Below are positions 29,757-64,000 of a DNA stretch of 64,000 nt, one piece after another. Every line of letters starts with the position of its first letter. Positions within the stretch are counted from its first letter, which is position 1. The stretch is from Artemia franciscana (Eukaryota > Arthropoda > Branchiopoda > Anostraca > Artemiidae): positions 43,538,241-43,602,240 of the forward strand of contig NC_088867.1 of NCBI RefSeq assembly GCF_032884065.1. Direction: 5' to 3'. A model generated the notes under the pieces. The model worked only from the letters and a program-made list of their open reading frames with translations, was not told where the DNA came from and made no database searches. The position numbers were made by a program, and so were the translations under genes.

Positions 29757-32248
29757 ATGGCACTTGATATTAACCAAGTGACATATAGCAATCGCAAAAT
29801 CTGTCGGTCTGTCTATCTGTCTGTCGGTCCCGGTTTTGCTACTTTAGGCACTTCCAGGTAAGCTAGGACGATGAAATTTGGCAAGCGTATCAGGGACCAG
29901 ACCAGATTAAATTAGAAATAGTCATTTTCCCGATTGGACCATCTGGGGGGAGTGGGGGGCCGGTTAATAGCGAAAAAATAGAAAAAAAGAAGTATTTTTA
30001 ACTTATGAGCGGGTGATGGGATCTAAATGAAATTTCATGTTTGGAATGATATTGTGTCTAAGAGCTCTTATTTTAAATCCCGACCGGATCTGATGACATT
30101 GAGGGGAGTTGGAGGGGGGGGGAAACCTAAAATCTTGGAAAACACTTAGAGTGGAGGGATCGAGATGAAACTTGATGGACAAAATAAGCACAAGTATCAG
30201 ATACATGATTGACATAATCGAAACGAATCTGTTCTCTTTGGGGTAGTTGGGGGGATGAGTGGGTAATTCTTAAAAATTAGAAAAAATGAGGTAATTTTAA
30301 CTTACGAACGGGTGATCGGATCTCAATAAAATTTGATGTTTAGAAGGATATCGTGTCTTAGAGCACTTATTTTAAATCCCGACCGGATCTGGTGACATTG
30401 GGGGGGGGGGGGTTGGGATGGGGAAACCTAAAACTTGGAAAACACTTAGAGTGGAGGGATCGGGATGTAACTTAGTGGGAAAAATAAACACAAGTCCTAG
30501 ATAGATGATTGACATAAACAGAACAGATCCGCTCTCTTTGGGGTAGTTGGGGGGGGGTTATCTCTGAAAAATTAGAAAAAATGAGGTATTTTTAACTTAC
30601 GAACGGGTGATCTGATAACAATGAAATTTGATATTTAGAAGGAAATCATGGCTCAGAGCTCTTATTTTAAACCCGACCGGATCTGGTGACATTGGGGGTG
30701 GGGAGTTGGGAGGGGGAAACCTAAAATTTGGAAAACACTTAGAGTGGAGGGATCGGGATAAAACTTGGTGGGAAAAATAATCACGAGTCCTAGATACTTG
30801 ATTGACATAACCGGAACGGATCTGCTCTCTTTGGGGTAGTTGGGGAGGGGTTAATTCCGAAAAATTAGAAAAAATGAGGTATTTTTAACTTACGAACGGG
30901 TGATCGGATCTCAATGAAATTTGATATTTAGAAGGATATCGTGTCTCAAAGCTATTATTTCAAATCCTGACCGGATCTGGTGACATTAGGGGAAGTTTGG
31001 GGTGGGGGAACCTAAAATCATGGAAAACGCTTAGATTGGAGGGATCAGGATGAAATTTGGTGGGTAAAATAAGCAGAAGTCTTACATACGTGATTTACAT
31101 AATTGGAACGGATCCGCTCTATTGGTGGGGGGAGGTAATTCTAAAAAATAAGAAAAAATGACGTATTTTTAACTTACGAAGGAGCGATCGGATCTTCATA
31201 AAACTTCCTATTTAGAAAGGCCTCGTAACTCAGATCTCTTAATTTAAATCTCTACCGGATCAGGCGTGATTTGGGGGGGGGATAGTTGGGGGGACCGCAA
31301 ATCTTAGAAAATACTTAAAGCGGTGAGACCAGGATGAAACTGGATGGGAAGAATAGAAACCTGTCTAAGATACGTGACTAACATAACCGGACCGGATCTG
31401 CTCTCGTTGGTGGAATCGGGGGGGGGGGGGGGTAATTTTGAAAATTGACGTATTTGTAACTTACGAAAGGGTAACCAGACCTTAATAAAATTTGATATTT
31501 AGAAGGATCTTGTGCTTTAAAGTTCTAATTTTAAATTCCGACCAGATCCTGTGATATTGGGGCGAGTTAGAGGGGAAAACCAGAATTCTTGGAAAACGTG
31601 AAAATTGGGGTATTTTTATCTTACGAATCGGATCTTAATGAAATTTGGTTTTTAGAAGGAATTCATGTCTCAGAGCTCTTATTTAAAATCCCGACAAGAT
31701 CTTTTGACATTGGGGGGAGTTGGGGGGTGAAATCTTGGAAAAACACTTGGAGTGGAGGAATCGGGATGAAGCTTGGTGGATAGAATAAACAAATGTCCTT
31801 AATACGTGATTGACAGAATCATACTTGATTTGCTCTCTTTGGGGGAGTTGGGGAGAGGGGTTCAGTGATTTGGCGAGTTTGGTGCTTCTGGACGTGCTAG
31901 GACGATGAAAATTGGTAGGCATGTCAGAGAGCTGCACAATTTGACTTGATAAAGTCGTTTTTCCAGATTCGACCATCTGGGGGGCTAAAGGGGAGAGGAA
32001 AAATTAGAAAAAATTAGGTATTTATAACTTACAAGTGGGTTATCGGATCTTAATGAATGTTGATATTTAGAAAGACATCGTGACTCAGAGCTCTTATTTT
32101 AAATCCTGACCGGCATGAAGCCTCTTATTTTCATTTTTAAATCAATCTATTGATTCATAGAATTTTGTTAGAGCTTATAGCATATGATCTCTTGGCTCTT
32201 AGCTCTTCTCGCCTCGTCACAAGTGCCATATGAGCTCTTAGCTCTTGT
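29757..32248 (-). mobile_element. Repeat B, long inverted copy with seven to eight internal units
   Basis: Reverse complement of the 10.1-kb copy with the same termini: the terminal stem-loop at 29761-29780, the CTGTCGGTCTGTC microsatellite, tandem units at about 30125, 30425, 30718, 31010, 31305, 31570 and 31730, and the GAGCTCTTAGCTCTTG terminus near 32248. It is about 640 bp longer than the other copy because of extra units. Apparent open frames are read through repeat units only. Confidence 0.8.
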
Positions 32249-39950: not shown

Positions 39951-42010
39951 ATTGTTGATTAGACAGTCCAGGTATGGGAATTGTTTGACGCACTGGATAC
40001 TCTCTCCATTAAGTTTCAAGTGAAGGTCTGGCTTAATTGTATCCTGCAGCTTTCATGAGCAGCACATAGCCAACTTGTAGGTCCTCAGGGGTTTCAGCTA
40101 TTTCGCCAATTCTGTGAGCATAAGCTAGCCTGTCTATAAGTACACCCTCTATATGTGCACCCTAGGTTGTTTCCACCAGGGATAAAATTGCTGTTCTGGG
40201 GACAGTATGCATCCTTGAAGGACTCAGGCAAATACTTGTAAGCTGTCAGTAGGACCTTCACTAGTCATAACCCAATTCATAAGATTTAGAGTACATGTCC
40301 TTGATAAGCTGACTAAATTTTGTGGAATCACGCAATGGAGGAGGATGTGCCAAATGTCTTTTCTCCAAATAAGGTCAAATGCTTGTTTAAAGTCAACAAA
40401 GGGATGGTATAGGTTGAAGCTGTATTCCAGATATTTCTCTGAAATCTGGAGTAAAGTGAGAATTTGATCAACAATCAATCTGCCAGGGTGGAAACTGGCT
40501 TGATATTCTTTGATGACCAAGGAAGACACAGCTCTGATCTGTGCAAATATAGTACTGACGAGAATCTGGTAGGCTAATATGAGAACCTGTTAGGCTAATA
40601 TGATCATAATTACCAAACATTGCCACTGACCTCTTCTTTTCGCCAATATCCCCTTGGTCCCTTCATTGGAGACCCTCCCTATATTTCATATAATGGTGAA
40701 AAGGGCAAGCCATACTGAGAGGCATGTTTTTATTGAACAGTTCAGCATTTCTGCTAAGGTTACATCTATGTATGGAGCTTGTCCATTTTTTAGCTTTTTG
40801 CTGCATGACCTCAGCAGAGCTTGCCAGGTCATTGATATCGAGCTGTAATAGGGGGATAACAGGTATTTTTTTGGTCATTGGGTCTTGGCCCATTTAATAG
40901 TTTCTTCAAGTGGATAGCCAACCTTTTGTCAATTTTAACTTTATCTGATAAAATCACTCCATATTTGGTATTGACCAGAGCGATTCTGATCCAACCATCT
41001 CATTAGTCAGCCATTAAACAGTTTTAGAATCACTCTTTCTAGCAACTGCTTCTGATAAAGCTGCTTTATTATCGAGGAAAAGTCTTTATATCCCTCCTGG
41101 CACTCTTTTTAGTTTCTTTGTCCTTCTCCTTAAAAAGTAGCTTTGAAGGGGATTGTGCATGCTGTGTGGTAATAGCCTGTAAGGTCTGCTTAAATACCTT
41201 ATCCTCGTCAATTAACTTCCACGTGGTTTCAGAGATTTCTTCCTGAAACCCATCTTTTCTTTAGGAACAGTCATGCATATACTTTTTATGGTGTCCCACT
41301 TCATTTCAATGCTTTCTTGTTCACTGGCTTCTGCTACTAGGGCATCAAACGTATTTTCTAGAGTCACTTTGAAACTCTTCGAACCTTAAGGTTATGCAGT
41401 TTTTTTTTGCAGGGTATGGTTTCTTTAGGTTTGAACTGGGTTTCTGAGGAGAATGAAGTTTGATCTGCATGCAAGTGACCATAAGTTTTTGATGTGTATG
41501 CAAGTGACCATAAGCATATGATCAGACTGTATGTCAGCTCTCACGTATATCTAAAAGGCTTCTGTGCCACTTTGGGGAGACCAGAAGATGATCTACCTGA
41601 TTCTGAGTTGAACCGCCTGGTGACGTCCATGTGTGTATGCACTGTTTTGCGGTCGAAAAAGTCGTAACAATGACAAGGTCATTGCTTAGTGCATAGTCTA
41701 ATAGTAATGTACCATTTTTGTTTATGTCATCAAGCCCATGCTCTCTTAGAATGTCAGGATAATACTGGCAATCACTTCCCACTTTTGTATTTAAATCACC
41801 AACAACACTCATTACATCATGCTTGGGGATGTCTTTAATAACAGCATGTAATATTTTGTAGAAATTGTCTGTAACATCCTCATCCACCTCATTTATAGGT
41901 GCATAGCACATGCTCATTAAGAACTTTGTGTGCTCTGTTATAAATCAAGCTGACATTATCCTCTCATTCACTGGTGTCCATTTGAGAATAGATCTATAAA
42001 CTGGGGGAGG
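39950..42010 (-). mobile_element. RTE-like LINE with endonuclease and reverse transcriptase, degraded
   Basis: Read on the minus strand from 42010: LKWTPVNERIMSA and CYAPINEVDEDVTDNFY, then VVGDLNTKVGSD (the GDFNAKVG endonuclease motif) and TWTSPGGSTQNQVDHLLVSP (the terminal ..DHIL motif). RT pieces follow from 40529: EYQASFHPGRLIVDQILTL and FVDFKQAFDLIWRK. The YADD box is now LAYAHRIGEIAETPEDL near 40110-40135, and the thumb appears as LHLKLNGESIQCVKQFPYLD near 39970-40040. The middle section (40530-41530) is poorly preserved. The catalytic Asp pair is lost and frames shift several times, so it is inactive. Confidence 0.85.
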
Positions 42011-50879: not shown

Positions 50880-53800
50880 TTGTTCTACACAGCAGCTAGT
50901 CGGTTTTTCGCATGGTTATAACTTTAAAAAATATTAAACTAATTTTTTCTTAAGGACCAGGAAGAACGCAACACTCAGTAAAGAGTTATAGTTTGACATT
51001 AAACACCAACAGGAATAGCTGTTTTCAAATGTAATTGCAAAAGAACCGTGTTTAACTGGTAATTTACCAGTTATTCACGATATTTTTCCAGTATATTTGA
51101 AAAACGACCAAGTTCTCACGCTGTTTTACAAGTATACTTGAAAAATAACCAAGTTCTCACGATCAAAAATAATTTTTCTCTTAAGGACCCGGAAGAACAC
51201 AACACTTAGTAAAGAGATATAGTATGACATTAAACACCAACAGGAATAGCTGTTTTCAAATGTAATTGCAAAAGAACCGTGTTTAACTGGTAATTTACCA
51301 GTTATTCACGATATTTTTCCAGTATATTTGAAAAACGACCAAGTTCTCACGCTTCTATACAAGTATACTTGAAAAATAACCAGGTTCTCACGATCAAAAA
51401 ATGAAAATACTATTTCAAATACTAAGAAAGCTATAAGATTCTATATGTCTCCTGGAACTCAATTCTATGAGCACAAGCCTAAAGAAAAAAGTTTTTTTTT
51501 GTTCATGTTTTAAACTTCAGTGCCTAGTTGTTCTACACAGCAGCTAGTCGGTTTTTCGCATGGTTATAACTTTAAAAAATATTAAACTAATTTTTTCTTA
51601 AGGACCAGGAAGAACGCAACACTCAGTAAAGAGTTATAGTTTGACATTAAACACCAACAGGAATAGCTGTTTTCAAATGTAATTGCAAAAGAACCGTGTT
51701 TAACTGGTAATTTACCAGTTATTCACGATATTTTTCCAGTATATTTGAAAAACGACCAAGTTCTCACGCTGTTTTACAAGTATACTTGAAAAATAACCAA
51801 GTTCTCACGATCAAAAATTATTTTTCTCTTAAGGACCCGGAAGAACACAACACTTAGTAAAGAGATATAGTATGACATTAAACACCAACAGGAATAGCTG
51901 TTTTCAAATGTAATTGCAAAAGAACCGTGTTTAACTGGTAATTTACCAGTTATTCACGATATTTTTCCAGTATATTTGAAAAACGACCAAGTTCTCACGC
52001 TTCTTTACAAGTATACTTGAAAAATAACCAAGTTCTCACGATCAAAAAATGAAAATACTATTTCAAATATTAAAAAAGCTATAAAGTGTTGCATATTCTT
52101 TCCTATGATTCTATATGTCTCCTGGAACTCAATTCTATGAGCACAAGCCTAAAGAAAAAAAAGTTTTTTTGTTCATGTTTTAAACTTCAGTGCCTAGTTG
52201 TTCTACACAGCAGCTAGTCGGTTTTTCGCATGGTTATAACTTTAAGAAATATTAAACTAATTTTTTTTAAGGACCAGGAAGAACGCAACACTCAGTAAAG
52301 GTTTATAGTTTGACATTAAACACCAACAGGAATAGCTGTTTTCAAATGTAATTGCAAAAGAACCGTGTTTAACTGGTAATTTACCAGTTATTCACGATAT
52401 TTTTCCAGTATATTTGAAAAACGACCAAGTTCTCACGCTGTTTTACAAGTATACTTGAAAAATAACCAAGTTCTCACGATCAAAAATAATTTTTCTCTTA
52501 AGGACCCAGAAGAACAAAACACTTAGTGAAGAGATATAGTATGACATTAAACACCAACAGGATTAGCTGTTTTCAAATGTAATTGCAAAAGAACCGTGTT
52601 TAACTGGTAATTTACCAGTTATTCACGATATTTTTCCAGTATATTCGATAAACGACCAAGTTCTCACGCTGTTTTACAAGTATTCTTGAAAAATAACCAG
52701 GTTCTCACGATCAAAAAATGAAAATACTATTTCAAATACTAAAAAAGCTATAAAGTGTTGCATATTCTTTCCTATGATTCTATATGTCTCCTGGAACTCA
52801 ATTCTATGAGCACAAGCCTAAAGAAAAATGTTTTTTTTGTTCATGTTTTAAACTTCAGTGCCTAGTTGTTCTACACAGCAGCTAGTCGGTTTTTCGCATG
52901 GTTATAACTTTAAAAAATATTAAACTAATTTTTTTTTAAGGACCAGGAAGAACGCAACACTCAGTAAAGAGTTATAGTTTGACATTAAACACCAACAGGA
53001 ATAGCTGTTTTCAAATGTAATTGCAAAAGAACCGTGTTTAACTGGTAATTTACCAGTTATTCACGATATTTTTCCAGTATATTTGAAAAACAACCAAGTT
53101 CTCACGCTGTTTTACAAGTATACTTGAAAAATAACCAAGTTCTCACGATCAAAAATAATTTTTCTCTTAAGGACCCGGAAGAACACAACACTTAGTAAAG
53201 AGATATAGTATGACATTAAACACCAACAGGAATAGCTGTTTTCAAATGTAATTGCAAAAGAACCGTGTTTAACTGGTAATTTACCAGTTATTCACGATAT
53301 TTTTCCAGTATATTTGAAAAACGACCAAGTTCTCACGCTTCTTTACAAGTATACTTGAAAAATAACCAAGTTCTCACGATCAAAAAATGAAAATACTATT
53401 TCAAATACTAAAAAAGCTATAAAGTGTTGCATATTCTTTCCTATGATTCTATATGTCTCCTGGAACTCAATTCTATGAGCACAAGCCTAAAGAAAAAAGT
53501 TTTTTTTTGTTCATGTTTTAAACTTCAGTGCCTAGTTGTTCTACACAGCAGCTAGTCGGTTTTTCGCATGGTTATAACTTTAAAAAATATTAAACTAATT
53601 TTTTTTTAAGGACCAGGAAGAACGCAACACTCAGTAAAAAGTTATAGTTTGACATTAAACACCAACAGGAATAGCTGTTTTCAAATGTAATTGCAAAAGA
53701 ACCGTGTTTAACTGGTAATTTACCAGTTATTCACGATATTTTTCCAGTATATTTGAAAAACGACCAAGTTCTCACGCTGTTTTACAAGTATACTTGAAAA

Positions 53801-54866
53801 ATAACCAAGTTCTCACGATCAAAAATAATTTTTCTCTTAAGGACCCGGAAGAACACAACACTTAGTAAAGAGATATAGTATGACATTAAACACCAACAGG
53901 AATAGCTGTTTTCAAATGTAATTGCAAAAGAACCGTGTTTAACTGGTAATTTACCAGTTATTCACGATATTTTTCCAGTATATCTGAAAAACGACCAAGT
54001 TCTCACGCTTCTTTACAAGTATACTTGAAAAATAACCAAGTTCTCACGATCAAAAAATGAAAATACTATTTCAAATACTAAAAAAGCTATAAAGTGTTGC
54101 ATATTCTTTCCTATGATTCTATATGTCTCCTGGAACTCAATTCTATGAGAACAAGCCTAAAGAAAAAAATTTTTTTTTGTTCATGTTTTAAACTTCAGTG
54201 CCTAGTTGTTCTACACAGCAGCTAGTCGGTTTTTCGCATGGTTATAACTTTAAAAAATATTAAACTAATTTTTTTTAAGGACCAGGAAGAACGCAACACT
54301 CAGTAAAGATTTATAGTTTGACATTAAACACCAACAGGAATAGCTGTTTTCAAATGTAATTGCAAAAGAACCGTGTTTAACTGGTAATTTACCAGTTATT
54401 CACGATATTTTTCCAGTATATTTGAAAAACGACCAAGTTCTCACGCTGTTTTACAAGTATACTTGAAAAATAACCAAGTTCTCACGATCAAAAATAATTT
54501 TTCTCTTAAGGACCCAGAAGAACAAAACACTTAGTAAAGAGATATAGTATCACATTAAACACCAACAGGATTAGCTGTTTTCAAATGTAATTGCAAAAGA
54601 ACCGTGTTTAACTGGTAATTTACCAGTTATTCACGATATTTTTCCAGTATATTCGAAAAACGACCAAGTTCTCACGCTGTTTTACAAGTATACTTGAAAA
54701 ATAACAAAGTTCTCACGATCAAAAATAATTTGTCTCTTAAGGACCCAGAAGAACACAACACTTAGTAAAGAGATAACACCAACTGGAATAGCTGTTTTCA
54801 AATGTAATTGCAAAAGAACCGTGTTTAACTGGTAATTTACCAGTTATTCACAATATTTTTCCAGTA
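50880..54866 (+). repeat. Satellite array, 669-bp monomers with higher-order structure
   Basis: The landmark TGTTCTACACAGCAGC recurs near 50881, 51529, 52199, 52868, 53537 and 54206, giving a 668-669 bp period; the first unit is 649 bp because it lacks about 20 bp. Each monomer holds two 232-bp subrepeats, seen as CACCAACAGGAATAGC and its variants, plus a unique spacer. Units 3 and 6 share private variants (CCCAGAAGAACAAAAC and GGATTAGC), while units 1, 2, 4 and 5 share CCCGGAAGAACACAAC. This is an a-a-b pattern with a 2.0-kb higher-order period. The array starts at an assembly gap, so its true length is unknown. Confidence 0.93.
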
Positions 54867-55215
54867 ATTTGCAATTACATTTGAAAACAGCTATTCCAGT
54901 TGGTCTTTAATGTCATACTATATCTCTTTACTAAGTGTTGTGTTCTTCCGGGTCCTAAAGATAAAAATTAATTTTGATCGTGAGAACTTGGTTATTTTTC
55001 AAGTATACTTGTAAAATAGCGTGAGAACTTGGTCGTTTTTCGAATATACTGGAAAAATATTGTGAATAACTGGTAAATTACCAGTTAAACACGGTTCTTT
55101 TGCAATTACATTTGAAAACAGCAATTCCTGTTGGTGTTTAGTGTCATACTATAACTCTTTACTAAGTCTTGCGTTCTTCCGGGTCCTTAAAAAAATTACT
55201 TTAACATTTTTTAAA
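54867..55215 (-). repeat. Inverted terminal segment of the satellite array
   Basis: From 54867 the satellite runs in the opposite direction for about 350 bp, through subrepeat, palindrome and paired-motif blocks. The innermost copies on both sides carry the same rare variant CAACTGGAATAGC (CAACAGG elsewhere), so the inverted arm was probably copied from the adjacent unit by a foldback event rather than joined at random. Confidence 0.85.
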
Positions 55216-56195: not shown

Positions 56196-56935
56196 GTATG
56201 GTAACTAAAAAAAGTCAAAAACTTAAAAAAAACTAACAAAAACCTAAAAGGAAACTAAAAAGAATAAAAACTTAGAAAAAAAAACATTTACAAAAACTCG
56301 AAGAAAAGCAAAAAATGAAAAAACTAAAAACTATCATCTATGACAAAAGGAAAAAACTAAAAAATGAAGAAAAAACTAAATGAAATCTAAAAAAGGGGAT
56401 AAAAACACAAATACATACTGTGTTTATTCTTGTTTGTTACATCCTTGGTTTGCTTATCTGAATTTATGGTTTGCTTTTAGGTAGTAAAATTAGATTTAAC
56501 TGTTTTGAGGGTCTTGAAAATGAAACCTGGTAAAGATGCCTTGCAAACCTGGAAATCTGGAAAAAAGTTATTATATGACATTAAACATGAAAAAGTTAAA
56601 AAACTTAAAAAACAAGAAAAAACTAAATAGAAACTAAAAAGGGGGAAAAACAAAAAGACAAAAACAAAGAAAAAAACAAAAAAAAACTAAAAACAATTTT
56701 TTAAAAATCAAAGAAAACCTATAGAAAAGGGAAAAAAATAAACTCTTAAAAACTAAAAAACGAAAAAAACTAAAAAAATCACACACACAAACACATACAC
56801 ACTGAGTTTATTCTTTTTAATATTTCCTGCTTTGCTTATCTGAATTTATGGTTTACTTTTTGGTAGTAAAATTCGAGGTAACTTTTTTAAGGGACTTGAG
56901 AATGAATCCTGAAAAAGATGCCTTAGTTCCACACC
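56195..56935. repeat. A-rich low-complexity DNA with a 382-bp tandem duplication
   Basis: Runs of AAAACTAAAAA-type sequence enclose two copies of a block beginning TGCTTATCTGAATTTATGG (56451 and 56833) and ending in AAAGATGCCTT. The copies are about 80-85% alike by eye. The segment lies 150 bp past the stop codon of the fusion gene. Confidence 0.65.
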
Positions 56936-57082: not shown

Positions 57083-58285
57083 TCAGGTGGTCATCTTCTT
57101 CTTTCGTTTTTTGGTTTTTTCCTGAGAACTATAAAGATGCTCTGCCGCAGCCTTATAATTCTTTCCACAGTCCTCTAGCTTCATCTGTTTCGTTTTCTTG
57201 ACTTTCTTCTCTACTTGCTGAAAAACCACGGATGGTTCCTCGCACGATGTTGAACCATCGCTGGCTCTCCCTGACGGTTCTGAGTCACGGGCCACTACGG
57301 CCCGTAGTGCCTCGCTCCATGATGATGAACCATCGCTGGTTTTCTCCGACGGTTCTGAGCTTCCCGACAATGCATCTCCGACTTCAACAGGCATCTCCTC
57401 CATTGCACCGGCCAACAGGACATCTCTTTTGCGCTTTCTGTCTCTCTCAGGCAGGAGGAAACTCAAATCATGCCCTTCATTGAATTGACCCGGTCTTACG
57501 CCATAGTCGAAGAATAGCTCCTCGCCGGCCGAGATGTCTCGTGTTGCAACGAGAAGCGGCCTTTTGATATTGTTAACCACCACCCCCTTCAGTTTTAGGT
57601 TTGGTCTATCCTCATTCGCCTTGTGGTTAATGAGGCGTCCAAAACATTTCTGTTGGGGATGGCACTCACAGGCCTCCTCTCTTGCATCAACTGTGACATC
57701 GTGATCAACCTGCAAGAAGTAATTACTTCCGTCTTCTTCTCCTTTCAGGGTCTGAAGAAGGCGCTTTGCCTCCATGGTTGGCATCATCTTCCCATGATAC
57801 TCGGTAACTACCTGGTTTGCCCAGAATGGCAAAGTGGCAAAAACACCTAATCCAGCCCCTACCGCGAGGCTCTTGGCTACTGTCAATCCAATCCAGGATT
57901 GAAGAACAACGCAATGAGTAAGAGTTTCCCCCACCACTGGTTCAACAGGATAGTTCCTCCGGATCTTACAGCTGTTGTATGCATCCCGGACCTGTTGAAG
58001 CTTCGGCAAGAATTCCTTGTAGCCAAGTCGACGAACAGCTATGTTGTAATTGTCTTCCGTGATGGCATCGGAAATGTCTGATCCTAGACCACGCTTCTCC
58101 GAGATTGCTGTTATGATTGCCTGAAGTCTGACCTCCCTAAGCCCCCTGCTGTAGAGGTCCTTAACCGACTTCAGTAGGCTCGGATCCGTCATGTCTGGAT
58201 TACAATGTCGAATCAATTTAAAAGACGCCGTTTTGAATTCAGGAGATGCATTAATCGGCTTGATAGTCAGAACACGGTTGAAAGC
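57083..58285 (-). CDS. Exon 3: KMT5A/SET8-like SET domain
   Basis: The acceptor TTTCATCTCTTTCCAG ends at 58286, and GCT begins the exon in phase 0, matching exon 2. There is no ATG at the head of this open frame (a TTG is the nearest start-like codon), so it is an internal exon. SET landmarks: GAGLGVFAT (cofactor loop, about 972-980), VVTEYHG (about 988-994), VDAREE, FGRLINH (about 1044-1050), RDISAGEELFFDYG (about 1078-1091). These follow human KMT5A order and spacing closely, including VVEYHG, VDATRE and GRLINHS. Differences: NHK instead of NHS, a Cys/His-containing insert (CECHPQQKC) before GRLINH, and Phe at the position of SET8 Tyr334. The tail is Lys/Arg-rich and ends KKRKKKMTT, a likely nuclear localisation signal. 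An ATTAAA lies about 50-60 bases beyond the stop as a possible poly(A) signal. Confidence 0.85.
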   Translation of the reverse strand, partial: AFNRVLTIKPINASPEFKTASFKLIRHCNPDMTDPSLLKSVKDLYSRGLREVRLQAIITAISEKRGLGSDISDAITEDNYNIAVRRLGYKEFLPKLQQVRDAYNSCKIRRNYPVEPVVGETLTHCVVLQSWIGLTVAKSLAVGAGLGVFATLPFWANQVVTEYHGKMMPTMEAKRLLQTLKGEEDGSNYFLQVDHDVTVDAREEACECHPQQKCFGRLINHKANEDRPNLKLKGVVVNNIKRPLLVATRDISAGEELFFDYGVRPGQFNEGHDLSFLLPERDRKRKRDVLLAGAMEEMPVEVGDALSGSSEPSEKTSDGSSSWSEALRAVVARDSEPSGRASDGSTSCEEPSVVFQQVEKKVKKTKQMKLEDCGKNYKAAAEHLYSSQEKTKKRKKKMTT

Positions 58286-61200
58286 CTGGAAAGAGATGAA
58301 AAGGGTAAATTAATAAGGGTATTTTAAGCTGGTCCAAGTCTAGTCTTGTTTTTAATAATGTTTTATTTAATTCCTTAGAAATTTATGGCCTTTCTATCAG
58401 TTTTGAAAAATGTCAATTTTTCGTTGTAAATTAGTGGAGGATAATGTCAGGGCGACTCAATTGCGACAATGGTGCTATTTTCCAGTCGTTGCCAATAGAA
58501 ATTTACTTAGGATTATCTTATGTTACTTCGAAAAAGATTTCAAACCGGTCCTGGTTCAGTATGTTCAAATGAAACTACGCAAGGCGTTTAGTTTTTTAAT
58601 TCGTTTATGGGGTCTTTACCGTCGGGACATCCTTGGTCGTATGTATACTGCTGTTGCTCTGCCTCACGAATTGTTCCCGTCCCTCCTCTTCCGTAATTTC
58701 AGACTTTCTGATCTTTCGCCCATTAAAGAATCTTATTTTAAATTTAAAAAAAAATTTATTTGGTTTGTCCCTTTGACAAACCAAATATGAGATAGTTTTG
58801 AGTGTTTTAAATCTTAGTGCAGGATCATGTAGCCTGTATAAAGAAAAATTACAAAACATTTGAAGACAAGGCAAAAATTATCCTCTTAGGCCACAATTTA
58901 TTTCCGCTCTTTAGTAACAGTTCTGACTTGATAATTTACAGGCTAAATTATTTAGAATTATTTTAGTATCTTTTTTTAGCTTACTCATCTTTTTCGAGGG
59001 AAATAAAGAAAATAAATAAATAAATAAAAATACTAAGTCAAAGTTGAGCCTGAAAGGAAAAACGGGCCAAATAAGACTTTTAAAACAATCTATATCACAA
59101 AATCTAAAGTTAAACTCACGACTTTGACTATGTTTTTCCTTGTTACCTCGTCCATGTTTTTGGTTTGATTTTTCTTAGAGTTCTCTTCTTCGTCTGAATT
59201 CCCTTTTGCTTCTGAGGCTGAGCACTTTTTAGCTTCTTCTGTACATTTCTCAAGCAACTTCCTGCTTTTTGCAATCCTCTGAAACACGTACGATTCGTAG
59301 TGTTTCTTTGATGTTATTTCTGTAAGACACAATGGTTAGAAAAATCGTAAAGGACATAGACACTTAAAAGTTTTTACAAACTAGAGGTAGACATTCTAAC
59401 GAAAAACAGCTCTGCAAGTTAATTCATTTCTGGATGAAGTATGAGAGGCTAATAACCTTAATGAAATGGCAGCTTGTTCTCTGAATCAAATTTATAATAG
59501 GTTTAATATCAATTTTTGACTAAGCTAAGTGGTGAGGTCACCTGGAAAGGAAATTTAAATTATGAAAATCATATAGAATGAGTGAAACTTACCCGAGTGA
59601 CAAAGATAATCAAACATCATATCCCGCTCTTCTTGTGTTTTGTGTGTTGCTTTGCGATTTATGGTTGTTATAAGGTGGCGGATGGTTGTTTGGTTGGGGA
59701 CCCTAACCCCCAGCCTCACGCCGGTTGGAAAAATTTTCTCCAGAAACCTCTTCAAAATTTTTGTTACGTTTTCCAGCTTTCCTCCCGTTGATGACAACAA
59801 AAAGTTTGGCGGCTCCGGCACACCAGGCTTCACCAGAGCCGGCCGAACGAATGACAAGTAATTCTGAAAATGTTTCTCTTCGTCGAGGCTGAGTGCCACA
59901 CCAGCGGACTTTAAGGAGGCGGTTTTGTGCTTCTCTACAAGAACCACAAACATTTCTTCTTCCTTTACTGCTTGCCGATTCATGAACTCATCCACTGTCA
60001 TGTTTTCTGGGACGCCAGGCCGATGACCGAACAAAAAGGAAACCAGGTAGCACAGGTAGGCCGTCAAGTTTGATAGATCACCGTCCAAAAGCCGATTCTT
60101 TGACAGACGCAGGAGCCCAGGAGCCATGAACTCCTCGACGCCTGCCTTCAGTTTTATATAGTCATCGTTATTGAAGGAGTGTGGGTCAAAAGCCCGCTGG
60201 TGCTCTTTATGCCTCTTTTCTCTTGTCGCAAGTGACGAGTTCTTTCTATCCAAATGACCCAGGGCTCTTATGACGGAGGCCACGAGTGTTAGATCCAGGT
60301 TCTCCGGACCTTCACTACCACGGCTGCTGATGTAATCAATAAATTTCCGAAATCCCTGGGCGTATTTCAATCTTGAACTTCCCTGCATTCCGCATTCAGC
60401 CAACTTTGCGAAAAATAGCTCCACTCTGCTGGCGGAGTGTAGGTTCATCCAGTTGTAATTTGTGCCCTCCAGCACAAAGTAGACGATTTTTTGTATACAT
60501 CCAAACGGATTTTGTAACTTCTTTGACTTTTCTTCTCCATCGAGCGCAGCCCATTTCCTGAAATCCTCCAGTAATTTAACCCCTTTTGCCATCTTTTTTG
60601 CTTCCTCTGCCGATTTTGTGTTCATGGTGTACACCTTGTACAAACCCATCTTCATCATGTTTTTGCGTACATTATCCTGCCAATTCCACTCCCTCTTCAA
60701 GGAAGTGGAGGCTCCTAACAGCTCCGGTGGATTTTCCGGCTCAGACTCTGAGTCTGAATTATCATGTAGAGAGCCTTCTGGGGAATAGAGGCTACCCTCC
60801 TCACTATGGATTAGGTCTTCTTGGTCCGAATCGATATATTTCTGCCGAGCTTCCCGATGGGGTCGAGAAGGCTCCACCAGTAGCTCGCTGGAGAAAATAT
60901 TTCTATTCGATGCAGGTGACGAAGTTTCTGGAATCGGTGAAGTTGATGGCTTTTCCTGGGCTGACGATGGAGCGTCAAGAACGGCTGGTCCGTGGAAAGT
61001 TGTAGTCACGGAGTCACGACCAGTCTGTGAAGTTGTAGTCAACGAAATTGGCCAGTCCAGTTCATCGCTTGTGTCGAAGTACAGCCCGCTCATCTTTGTC
61101 AATGCATCGCAGAGTTTATGGAGTGTTTTCGAGTTTTCTATTGCAGCTCGTACTTGCGACGCATAAAAGTATGACTTATATCTTGTTTTTTTTTCAAGGT

Positions 61201-61879
61201 CATCTTTGGCTTGATTGTGCAGTTGTTTTGCCTCTGCTGCTGTCCACGATTCCCCAGAAGGTTTTCTACAAGGTCCTTTTTTTGCCATGAGATGTTTTTC
61301 TAGGGATTCAAATGTCCTGTGGCAAAATGGACACATCTTCCAGAAATTACGGCACTTATTTTTCTTCTCGTGTTTTTCTTCTCCATGGATCGTGAGAGAT
61401 TTCTGCAGATTAATTTCGGGCGCGGTCAATGATGGCTGGGGGGTAGACTGATTTGGTATGTGTCCATCAGTGGCTGTGCATGTTTGGCTTTGGCAGTGTG
61501 TGTGTGCGTGCATGTGTGCAAGTGTGGTTGTGTTCATGCATGGCTGTGTATGTATGTTGGCATGTGTTGCTGTATGTGTGTGCTGGGGTGACAACGAAGA
61601 TTCGTTTGCGTTCAAGGCATGTCCAGGGGCAGGCGAGGTCAGTTCAGTTTTTGACAAGGCAGGTTCAGTAGCAGCCAAGCTCGGTCCAGTAGCAGCCAAG
61701 GTTGGTCCCTGGGCAGGCAATGTCGGTCCCTGGGCAGGCAATGTCGGTCCAGGGGCAGCAGACAAGGTCGGTCCAGGGGCAGCCAAGGTTATTTCAGGGC
61801 CAGGCAGAGACAGTCCAGGGGCAGGCAAGGTCGTTTCAGAGGATTCTTGGCAAACAATATTTTTAATCGTTTTGGACAT
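57083..61879 (-). CDS. Tyrosine recombinase-SET methyltransferase fusion protein, three exons
   Basis: Coding exons 61879-59593, 59319-59120 and 58285-57083 join across GTAAGT...CAG and GTGAGT...CAG introns of 273 and 834 bp. They total 3690 nt, 1229 residues plus stop, in one frame. Domains in order: low-complexity Pro/Ala/Thr then Thr/His-rich leader (about 1-150), C2HC zinc finger (about 183-204), acidic Ser-rich linker, helical core-binding region (about 455-570), tyrosine recombinase catalytic domain (about 600-775), Lys/Glu-rich linker, SET domain (about 966-1092), Lys-rich basic tail. The recombinase would cut and rejoin DNA through a 3'-phosphotyrosine; the SET domain would methylate lysine using S-adenosylmethionine, probably on chromatin. 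The recombinase is closest in layout to Crypton-like elements; no reverse transcriptase is present, so a DIRS element is unlikely. It could be an active transposase or a domesticated host gene. The fusion is seen in sequence; its activity is inferred. Confidence 0.85.
58286..59119 (-). other. Intron 2 of the fusion gene
   Basis: 834-bp intron bounded by GTGAGT and CTTTCCAG on the minus strand. It contains an unexplained 126-codon open frame on the opposite strand (58410-58790) and, at the end of that frame, a perfect 12-bp stem with a 5-base loop (58758-58786). The rest is AT-rich with short AAAT runs near 59010-59030. Confidence 0.7.
58758..58786. repeat. Perfect 12-bp hairpin inside intron 2
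   Basis: ATTTGGTTTGTC and its exact reverse complement flank CCTTT. No gene context explains it; it may be a remnant of a foldback element. Confidence 0.6.
59120..59319 (-). CDS. Exon 2: catalytic tyrosine and charged linker
   Basis: The acceptor TGTCTTACAG ends at 59320. The two leading bases complete codon 763 (Glu), followed by ITSKKHYESYVFQR. The KHY tyrosine, about residue 770, sits eight to nine residues after the LCHS histidine, the usual spacing of box III to the nucleophile in tyrosine recombinases. That agreement strongly supports the splice. The remaining residues are a Lys/Glu/Ser-rich linker that ends in frame (phase 0) at the donor GTC|GTGAGT, intron starting at 59119. The 66 whole codons plus the split codon leave no stop in the joined frame. 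Confidence 0.8.
59593..61879 (-). CDS. Exon 1: zinc finger and most of the tyrosine recombinase domain
   Basis: Encodes residues 1-762 plus the first base of codon 763. The zinc finger reads CPFC...H...C around residues 183-204. Catalytic-pattern residues are Arg near 620 (GHRPGV), Lys near 650 (EKHKTAS), the second Arg near 735 (TIRHLITT) and His near 761 (LCHS). The usual box II His (HxxR) is not obvious, as in several Crypton-type enzymes. The donor is CGG|GTAAGT with the intron starting at 59592. Reading past the donor gives only 12 more residues before a stop, so splicing is required to reach the catalytic tyrosine. The bases CTCCTTTTAG directly precede the ATG, a strong acceptor, so the ATG may be internal or follow a non-coding leader exon. 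The N-terminal leader is encoded by roughly 24-bp GC-rich repeats and a TG-rich stretch, both likely length-variable. Confidence 0.85.
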
Positions 61880-62130: not shown

Positions 62131-62179
62131 AAAACCTAGTAAATTACAAGGCTCTCTTTTCTCTTAAAAAAAGCTAAAT

Positions 62180-62500
62180 TAATTTTAGGATATTGGGTTG
62201 GGGGGGAAGGAAGTTCAAGGACAGGCTACGTGGTATAAACTTTCAATAGAAGAATTTGTCTTGGGAGAAGAGAATTTCAAGGAAAGGGGTCGCGGGATTT
62301 TCTAGTATTATTTTAAAAATCAATGAAAAAAAACATGGAGGCTTTTTAAAACTGAATGTAAGGCACATCATTAAAACTTAATACGAACGGAAGTTATTAC
62401 GCATATGACGGATTTACCTCCCCGTAATACCTCAATCTTTAAGCTTAAGTATTTTCAGTATATTTGGCTTGAGGGGTGAGAGATACAAGGAAGGGTGGGG
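62180..62500 (+). repeat. Repeat A fragment (3' half)
   Basis: Carries the repeat-A series GGGATTTTCTAG, ACTGAATGTAAGG, TTACGCATATGACGG and TTTACCTCCCCGTAATACCT, ending just before the right-hand satellite copy. Confidence 0.65.
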
Positions 62501-62514
62501 GATAATTTGAAAAA

Positions 62515-62893
62515 AATACAGATTTTTTTAAGGATCAGGAAGAACGCAATACTTAGTAGAATTATTATTTGTCACTAGACACCAAAAGGAATGGCTGCTG
62601 ATAGTCTGGCACAAAATTGTTTAACTGGTAAATTACCAGGTTTTCACAATATTTTTCCAGTATATTCGAAAAACGACCGAATTCACACACTGTTTTACAA
62701 GTATACTTGAAAAATAAGCACGTTCTCACAATCCAAAAGTTGAAAATACTATTTCAAATACTAAGAAAGCTCGCAAGTGTTCCAGATTCTTTCCTATGAT
62801 TCTATATGTCTCCTGGAAATCAATTCCATGCGTAAAAGTCTAAAGAAAAAAGGTTTTTTGTTCATGTTTTAAACTTCAATGTTACTACACAGC
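62515..62893 (+). repeat. Diverged single copy of the 50.9-55.2 kb satellite
   Basis: Blocks AAGGATCAGGAAGAACGCAA, GTTTAACTGGTAAATTACCA, AAGTATACTTGAAAAATAA, TCTATATGTCTCCTGGAA and CTACACAGCAGCTAGT occur in the same order and orientation as in the left array. It lies beyond the 5' end of the fusion gene, so the gene is bracketed by direct copies of one sequence. Confidence 0.85.
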
Positions 62894-62896
62894 AGC

Positions 62897-64000
62897 TAGT
62901 AGTAGTAGTAGTACGTCAGTAGTAGTAGTACGTCAGTAGTAGTAGTAGTAGGTCATTTTTAGAACTTGCAGACCAATTAAATTTAAATTTTGAGAGAAGT
63001 CATCTCCAATTTTTCTAAGATAGTATAGAAGTGGTAGTAGTAGTGGGCCGGTAGAAGTAGTAGTATTAGGTCAGTAGTAGTAGTAGTAGGTCAGTAGTAG
63101 TAGTAGTAGGTCAGTAGTAGTAGTAGTAGTAGGTCAGTAGTAGTGGTAGTAGTAGGTCTATAGTAGTAGTAGTAGTAGGTCAGTAGCAGTAGTAGTAGGT
63201 CAGTAGTAGTAGTAGTAGGTCAGTAGTAGTAGTAGTAGTAGGTCAGTAGTAGTAGTAGTAGGTCAGTAGTAGTAGTAGTAGGTCAGTAGTAGTAGTAGTA
63301 GGTCAGTAGTAGTAGTAGTAGGTCAGTAGTAGAAGCTCAGTAGCAGTAGTAGTAGTAATAGGTTAGTAGTAGTAGTAGTAGGTCAGTAGTTGTAGTAGTA
63401 GTAGGTCAGTAGTTGTAATAGTAGGTCAGTAGTAGTAGTAGTAGGTCAGGTTAGTAGTAGTAGTAGGTCAGTAGTTGTAGTAGGTCAGTAGTAGTAGTAG
63501 GTCAGTAGTAGTAGTAGGTCAGTAGTAGTAGTAGGTCAGTAGTAGTAGTAGTAGGTCAGCAGCAGTAGTAGTAAGGAAATTTCCTAAGGAAATTTCTCCC
63601 CTTTCTTCACCCCCCTTCTTTCTTAATCCTCCCCCCGCCCCAACCTCACCCTTCTTCGTTAGTAGTAGTAGTAGTAGTACGTCAGTAGTAGTAGTAGTAC
63701 GTCAGTAGTAGTAGTAGTACCTCAGTAGTTGTAGTCGTAGGTCAGTAGTAGTAGTAGTAGGTCAGTAGTAGTAGTATTAGGTCAATAGCAGTAGTAGTAG
63801 GTCAGTAGCAGTAGTAGTAGGTCAGTAGCAGTAGCAGTAGTAGTAGGATAGTAGTAGTAGTAGTAAGGAAATTTCCTAAGGACAGTAGCAGTAGTAATAG
63901 GTCAGTAGCAGTAGCAGTAGCAGTAGGTTAGTAGTAGTAGTACATCAGTAGTAGTAGTAGGTCAGTAGTAGTAGTAGTAGGTCAGTAGTAGTAGTAGTAG
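62897..64000 (+). repeat. TAG/TAGGTC minisatellite, continuing past the window
   Basis: Over 1.1 kb of (TAG)n punctuated by GGTC, in units of about 14-23 bp, most often AGTAGTAGTAGTAGGTC (17 bp). A non-repeat island at 63572-63662 is C/T-rich. The palindrome AAGGAAATTTCCTAAGG occurs at about 63575 and again near 63865, which suggests the island was duplicated or partly lost within the array. Confidence 0.92.

Follow-up and report, generated by a model that had tools for sequence, protein, structure and literature searches.

A described system in which a SET methyltransferase and a DNA-mobilising enzyme are joined in one polypeptide is SETMAR (Metnase), which carries a Mariner (Hsmar1) transposase and is reported to have been domesticated in primates. 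Within SETMAR the SET domain is located N-terminally, the transposase is of the DDE type and the SET family is other than the KMT5A type. SETMAR prompts one to ask if fusions of this kind, between a transposase and a SET domain, are isolated accidents of domestication. Here we describe a gene from Artemia franciscana, located on the minus strand of a 64,000-nucleotide stretch of contig NC_088867.1 (positions 43,538,241 to 43,602,240; hereafter the window, the numbering of which is used throughout), which is predicted to encode a region resembling a tyrosine recombinase (YR) followed by a KMT5A-like SET domain. The proposed combination of a SET domain with a DNA-mobilising domain in one polypeptide is a likeness to SETMAR, the difference being the Mariner transposase identified there.

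The methyltransferase of DIRS-type retrotransposons is a DNA-type methyltransferase (MT) domain and not a SET domain. According to PMC4157794, DIRS-type elements are tyrosine-recombinase elements of which some encode a methyltransferase domain, and they differ from the gene described here in being retroelements with reverse transcriptase. Helentrons are rolling-circle DNA transposons with a separate Clr4-like SET open reading frame (ORF) of about 153 amino acids (PMC4067079) and hence resemble the present case as eukaryotic DNA transposons with a SET domain, but this domain is described as unfused to the transposase. Cryptons are DNA elements encoding a tyrosine recombinase, the animal members of which were reported to be without terminal repeats, whereby animal CryptonA and CryptonI are stated to lack a C-terminal domain (PMC3212892); the same paper describes domesticated Crypton genes (DUF3504), all of which lost the catalytic Tyr and the second Arg. 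The gene from A. franciscana resembles the animal Cryptons as sketched there in being tyrosine-recombinase-like with no gene-specific terminal repeat seen, whereas it differs by the SET domain that follows its recombinase-like region. A recombinase-SET fusion was found in none of the listed titles and abstract beginnings of open-licence PubMed Central articles, a scope outside of which most subscription literature and Repbase are located.

Gene model and splicing

In-frame splicing of three minus-strand exons (61879-59593, 59319-59120 and 58285-57083) yields a protein of 1229 residues, with the stop codon of the spliced frame at 57083 and with phases 1 and 0 at the two junctions. Exon 1 (59593-61879) encodes residues 1-763, ends in phase 1 and comprises a low-complexity N-terminus, a candidate C2HC-type finger, a helical region and most of the recombinase-like domain. 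Exon 2 (59120-59319) provides the candidate nucleophile Y770 and a charged linker, and exon 3 (57083-58285) encodes a pre-SET region, the SET domain and a basic C-terminus (RKRKR, KKRKKK). The minus-strand open frames behind exons 1 and 3 span 774 codons (61879-59555) and 408 codons (58309-57083) respectively; as the longest ORFs among 1000 mononucleotide shuffles each were 292 codons for exon 1 and 218 codons for exon 3, these frames are more than would be expected by chance. Elsewhere in the window only one more ORF of more than 150 codons (176 codons) is present. The guanine-plus-cytosine (GC) content of exons 1, 2 and 3 is 47.7, 37.5 and 48.7%, that of the introns 31.5 and 32.1%.

Splice sites were ranked among the GT and AG sites of the gene's strand using textbook splice frequencies. 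Donor 1 (CGG/GTAAGT, the slash marking the boundary) ranks sixth of 3126 GT sites, and the acceptor of the SET exon (TTCATCTCTTTCCAG/G) ranks first of 3696 AG sites on the strand, which suggests that the SET exon is built as a downstream exon. Acceptor 1 is ordinary (rank 165 of 3696), as is donor 2, to which we return below. An earlier note on this DNA, made from its letters, had claimed three exons with consensus splice sites, matching phases (1, 0) and about 1229 residues without a stop. The exons, their GT and AG boundaries, the phases and the length were confirmed; among the splice sites, donor 1 and the SET acceptor are outstanding and the other two ordinary. Codon scores were derived from the larger part of exons 1 and 3, excluding exon 2 and the first 99 nucleotides of exon 3. 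Exon 2 turned out to be coding-like, since its score in frame was matched by none of the 4255 non-coding segments that were sampled, all free of stops and as long as the exon. At the 5' side, the start ATG abuts an acceptor-like sequence (ttctccttttag/ATG, rank 128 of 3696) and is preceded by an in-frame TAG; both features make a further, non-coding 5' exon likely, and such an exon thus probably exists. Within intron 2, two acceptor-like sites (58833 and 59049, minus strand) are each followed by GCT, like the acceptor of exon 3.

The SET methyltransferase half

The identity of the SET domain (57500-57853, minus strand) is certain from its sequence: the Pfam model PF00856 was matched over its full length (positions 1-105 of 105, E value 9e-15), and among the best 60 of 88 matches to PDB sequences its nearest solved relatives are KMT5A/SETD8 chains (E value 1.7e-11). 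The SET motifs listed in the earlier note were confirmed, namely VVTEYHG (residues 988-994), GRLINH (within FGRLINH, 1044-1050) and GEELFFDYG, the last including the catalytic-type Tyr1090. Accordingly, the domain shares with KMT5A (SETD8, PR-Set7) the elements EYHG, GRLINH, RDIxAGEEL and DYG, but it differs by a CECHP insert just before GRLINH, by carrying Phe where KMT5A has its switch Tyr and by its fusion behind the recombinase-like region. The SET exon also matched an NCBIfam model built for a bacterial protein that contains a SET domain (6.1e-7; 28.5 bits versus a cut-off of 550), which is taken as reflecting the shared SET domain only.

Alignment of the KMT5A segment LLYDYG with LFFDYG places Phe1088, two residues before Tyr1090, at the Phe/Tyr-switch position, so that the Tyr found at the switch in KMT5A is absent here. 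A Phe at the Phe/Tyr switch of SET enzymes favours di- or trimethylation. Likewise, KMT5A with an exchange of its switch Tyr (Y334) to Phe is said to dimethylate. A term search of the review PMC8897848 returned no confirmation of the latter, and the term Y334 was absent from it. From the sequence, Phe1088 predicts di- or trimethylation, and as the switch residue differs from that of KMT5A, "KMT5A-like" is not to be read as H4K20 monomethylation; the likeness to KMT5A claimed by the earlier note therefore stands with respect to the nearest solved relative, but without the implied monomethylation. Many predicted "KMT5A-A-like" proteins with a CxCHPxxxxFGRxINH motif occur in fish and invertebrates. 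If this expansion is real, the SET subfamily would be widespread, the novelty of the present domain correspondingly lower, and the gene a member of a wider, unnamed group; a term search for "KMT5A-A-like" in open-licence PubMed Central gave no match.

The tyrosine-recombinase-like half

The putative catalytic region of the recombinase begins at residue 567, and its exon 1 part (59593-60181, minus strand) includes R620, the lysines K650, K652 and K657, R734 and H761. Together with Y770, the codon of which (59297-59299) is located in exon 2, the residues R620, lysine (K650, K652 or K657), R734, H761 and Y770 occur in the order known from tyrosine recombinases. When exon 1 is read on past its donor, the sequence continues as CHSGKFHSFY; joined to exon 2 it becomes CHSEITSKKHY. 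Only in this spliced reading are H761 and Y770 separated by exactly eight residues (H-x8-Y), a spacing (H/W-x8-Y) seen in 11 of 12 aligned phage recombinases. When residues 1-829 were shuffled, YR-like signatures were met in 155 (loose signature) and 79 (tail signature) of 20,000 shuffles.

AlphaFold models computed without relatives were obtained for the recombinase-like region (exon 1 only, exon 2 missing; mean predicted local distance difference test (pLDDT) score 37) and for the SET region (pLDDT 33). None of the 139 matches that a Foldseek search returned for the former is significant; a Cre variant ranks first (E value 0.23), and there are seven recombinases among the best 50 of the 139 (five Cre or Cre-derived, XerH and XerA). 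This low-confidence model also contains a beta-hairpin with lysines in or beside it that follows the helices, as in the YR fold. In one non-significant hmmsearch alignment (-3.9 bits), H761 and Y770 are placed on the H and the Y of a profile of 12 phage recombinases. Residue order, spacing and the weak structural hint make an identity as tyrosine recombinase plausible.

Flanks, copies and relatives

At a BLAST E value of 1e-4, the segment 56930-62172, which encloses the gene, matches only itself within the window, owing to short repeats in the coding sequence. On both sides it is adjoined by repeats with further copies in the window (62173-62900 and about 50.9-56.9 kb). Those on the 5' side (62173-62900) have matches at 14.6, 20.9, 43.7 and 51-55 kb and are taken as host DNA; the 3' side shows an A-rich duplicated repeat (56209-56924), the two units of which, 56209-56542 and 56590-56924, are 72% alike. 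An unmatched segment between two matched flanks fits an insertion. Some repeat pairs span the gene, for example a direct one (54051-54176 with 62734-62859, 87%; among the 20 of 26 direct families listed) and an inverted one (54972-55091 with 62618-62737, 90%; among the 25 of 36 inverted pairs listed). As the flanking repeats recur elsewhere in the window, they are taken as host repeats and not as element ends.

The earlier note had proposed counting copies of the gene, and within the 64-kb window the count is one, no second copy of the protein being present there. Searches for close relatives starting from the single protein found none in viral contigs (both long ORFs) or genome contigs (exon 3 only), degenerate CxCHP-GRxINH patterns had no match in either set, and tblastn gave no match in phages (exons 1 and 3) or, with exon 1 only, in plasmids. 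All of these collections consist of prokaryotic or viral sequences, and absence from them says little about animals.

Proposed function and alternative readings

The gene is best read as the single coding unit of a Crypton-like, i.e., tyrosine-recombinase, DNA transposon or as a recent relict of one, a reading to which we assign a probability of roughly 0.5. It is supported by the in-frame splice, the GC contrast between exons and introns, the coding-like exon 2, the top-ranked acceptor and the SET match described above, as well as by the H-x8-Y spacing made by the splice, the low frequency of YR-like signatures among shuffles, the Cre variant at the head of the Foldseek list and the unmatched segment between repeat-bearing flanks. 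Of the interpretations of the sequence, the single recombinase-SET polypeptide claimed by the earlier note, in which the KMT5A-like domain follows the recombinase-like region, fits best. Its SET half is solid; its recombinase half is suggested by motif and a weak structural hint.

The reaction model suggested for such an element assumes that the element ends are bound by the candidate finger near the N-terminus together with the helical region, and that R620, the lysine, R734, H761 and Y770 would cut and rejoin DNA via a covalent tyrosine link, whereby the element would be excised and reinserted, probably in circular form. Held on this DNA by the rest of the protein, the C-terminal SET domain may then methylate lysines, either in nucleosomes close by or in the recombinase itself, with Phe1088 expected to direct it towards di- or trimethylation. 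The likely benefit would be control over the element's chromatin, in that its own copies may be damped or hidden or the target prepared. The full proposition, namely a self-contained mobile element whose recombinase is at the same time a lysine methyltransferase with altered product specificity that marks its own copies or its landing site, is put forward tentatively, at somewhat less than even odds. If true, the gene would be the founding example of a class of YR-SET elements and an independent transposase-SET case that differs from SETMAR both in the chemistry of the transposase and in the SET family and that may still reside within a transposon. It would then become directly testable if chromatin marks are written by mobile elements themselves, and if methylation of the H4K20 type serves or opposes transposition.

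Several findings weigh against the Crypton-like reading and are considered here with the alternatives on which they bear. No element ends are defined, the flanking repeats could belong to a larger element, and neither relatives in the prokaryotic and viral collections nor a second copy in the window were found. Moreover, the HxxR box of the recombinase reads TxxR, with T731 in place of the H and R734 following. Animal recombinase proteins with a TxxRxH box occur, so that T for H may be widespread. The exchange is compatible with a transposon and with a domesticated gene alike. A domesticated host gene, in which a recombinase-derived DNA-binding region and a SET domain would act as a targeted chromatin modifier like SETMAR, is unlikely, even though the single copy in the window with its intact frame, the three exons with a strong first donor and a strong last acceptor and the SETMAR precedent would suit it. 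The locus is repeat-rich with few long ORFs, and within the R-H-R-Y tetrad, as named in PMC3212892, the protein has R620, T731 for the H, R734 and Y770, while also keeping H761. That the two arginines and the tyrosine are all still present speaks against a domesticate of the DUF3504 type, given the losses reported there for all such genes, and no match to the DUF3504 model was found in Pfam.

A further group of findings concerns the junction between the two halves. Donor 2 ranks only 217th of 3126 GT sites, and retention of intron 2 or use of the acceptors at 59049 or 58833 leads to stops soon after exon 2 and hence to products of 831-838 residues without the SET domain, so that a recombinase-only isoform is conceivable. 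Taken further, the locus would consist of two neighbouring units, a recombinase gene ending in intron 2 and, apart from it, a SET gene that starts from a 5' exon of its own, in line with which the first 99 nucleotides of exon 3 are neutral by codon score (18% of 26,952 sampled segments score as high) and thus not coding-like. This arrangement is decidedly unlikely: the acceptor of exon 3 is the strongest on the strand, both donor 2 and an alternative donor at 59146, which scores slightly above it and gives 1220 residues, join exon 3 in frame, and an independent SET gene would presuppose a further 5' exon, which has not been seen.

The assignment of the recombinase itself is opposed by the sequence-profile tests. 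Whereas the profile search suggested by the earlier note succeeded for the SET family, no YR match was found in Pfam, PHROGs, NCBIfam or PDB sequences, the searches of which listed only weak, unrelated matches (YukD, 0.18; EF-hand_Zip, 0.23; Cas5a, 0.042; a designed protein, 0.053). The comparison by hhalign with the 12-sequence phage YR profile gave a probability of 0.3% with the wrong residues aligned, in its global mode 78 of 100 shuffles scored as well as the real sequence, and hmmsearch with --max gave no YR match against the 12 phage recombinases. The R...K...R...H...Y order reported by the earlier note is consequently present as a motif, without backing from profiles and with T731 at the histidine of the HxxR box. 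Both YR signatures used on the shuffles were drawn up after the sequence had been seen, and either one recognises just 4 of the 12 genuine phage recombinases. Finally, the control Foldseek search with the SET model returned 17 matches comprising no recombinase and no SET chain; since it misses a certain SET domain, the method is weak here. That the upstream half is an unrelated helical zinc-finger protein, of transposon or host origin, fused to SET and carrying R-K-R-H-Y by chance would fit these negative tests and the 0.4-0.8% of shuffles with signatures defined after the fact, but is very unlikely in view of the exact H-x8-Y made by the splice, the Cre variant at the head of the Foldseek matches and the predicted beta-hairpin with lysines after the helices. 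A bacterial or phage origin of the gene was rejected based on its introns, the GC contrast and the lack of matches.

N-terminal region and surroundings

The DNA encoding the N-terminus (61447-61842, minus strand) contains a 21-nucleotide tandem repeat, corresponding to a 7-residue Pro/Ala/Leu repeat, followed by a His/Thr-rich stretch. Downstream of it, the zinc finger claimed by the earlier note is recognisable by eye as the candidate C183-x2-C186-x9-H196-x7-C204 (61268-61333, minus strand), but Pfam gives it no significant support, the best zinc-related matches being Phage_zn_bind_3 (E value 0.28) and zf-C2HC_2 (E value 4.9).

Scans of the window for tRNAs and Rfam families were empty. Of the 23 further ORFs of at least 95 codons in the window, 10 were compared with Pfam, which revealed the relict of a long interspersed nuclear element (LINE; RVT_1, 4.6e-5, 40224-40589, minus strand) and one weak match to a domain of unknown function. 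The LINE relict also includes 41534-41944 (minus strand), which appears endonuclease-like by eye and has no Pfam or PDB match. Together with the splice sites and the sizes of the introns, this relict would by itself suggest an animal genome. As the sole weak reverse-transcriptase match in these ORFs is about 16 kb away from the gene, an element of the long terminal repeat (LTR) or Ngaro type is unlikely.

A satellite-like array occupies 50936-55215 and consists of 231-bp units in a higher-order repeat of approximately 670 bp with short palindromic cores; it ends in a 348-nucleotide inverted copy (arms 92% complementary), and a related piece is located across the gene at 62512-62900. From 62897 to 64000 a long CTA-rich microsatellite with a higher-order unit of 17-23 nucleotides follows, and a further tandem array, with a 293-bp unit in 5.7 copies, is located at 29946-31597.

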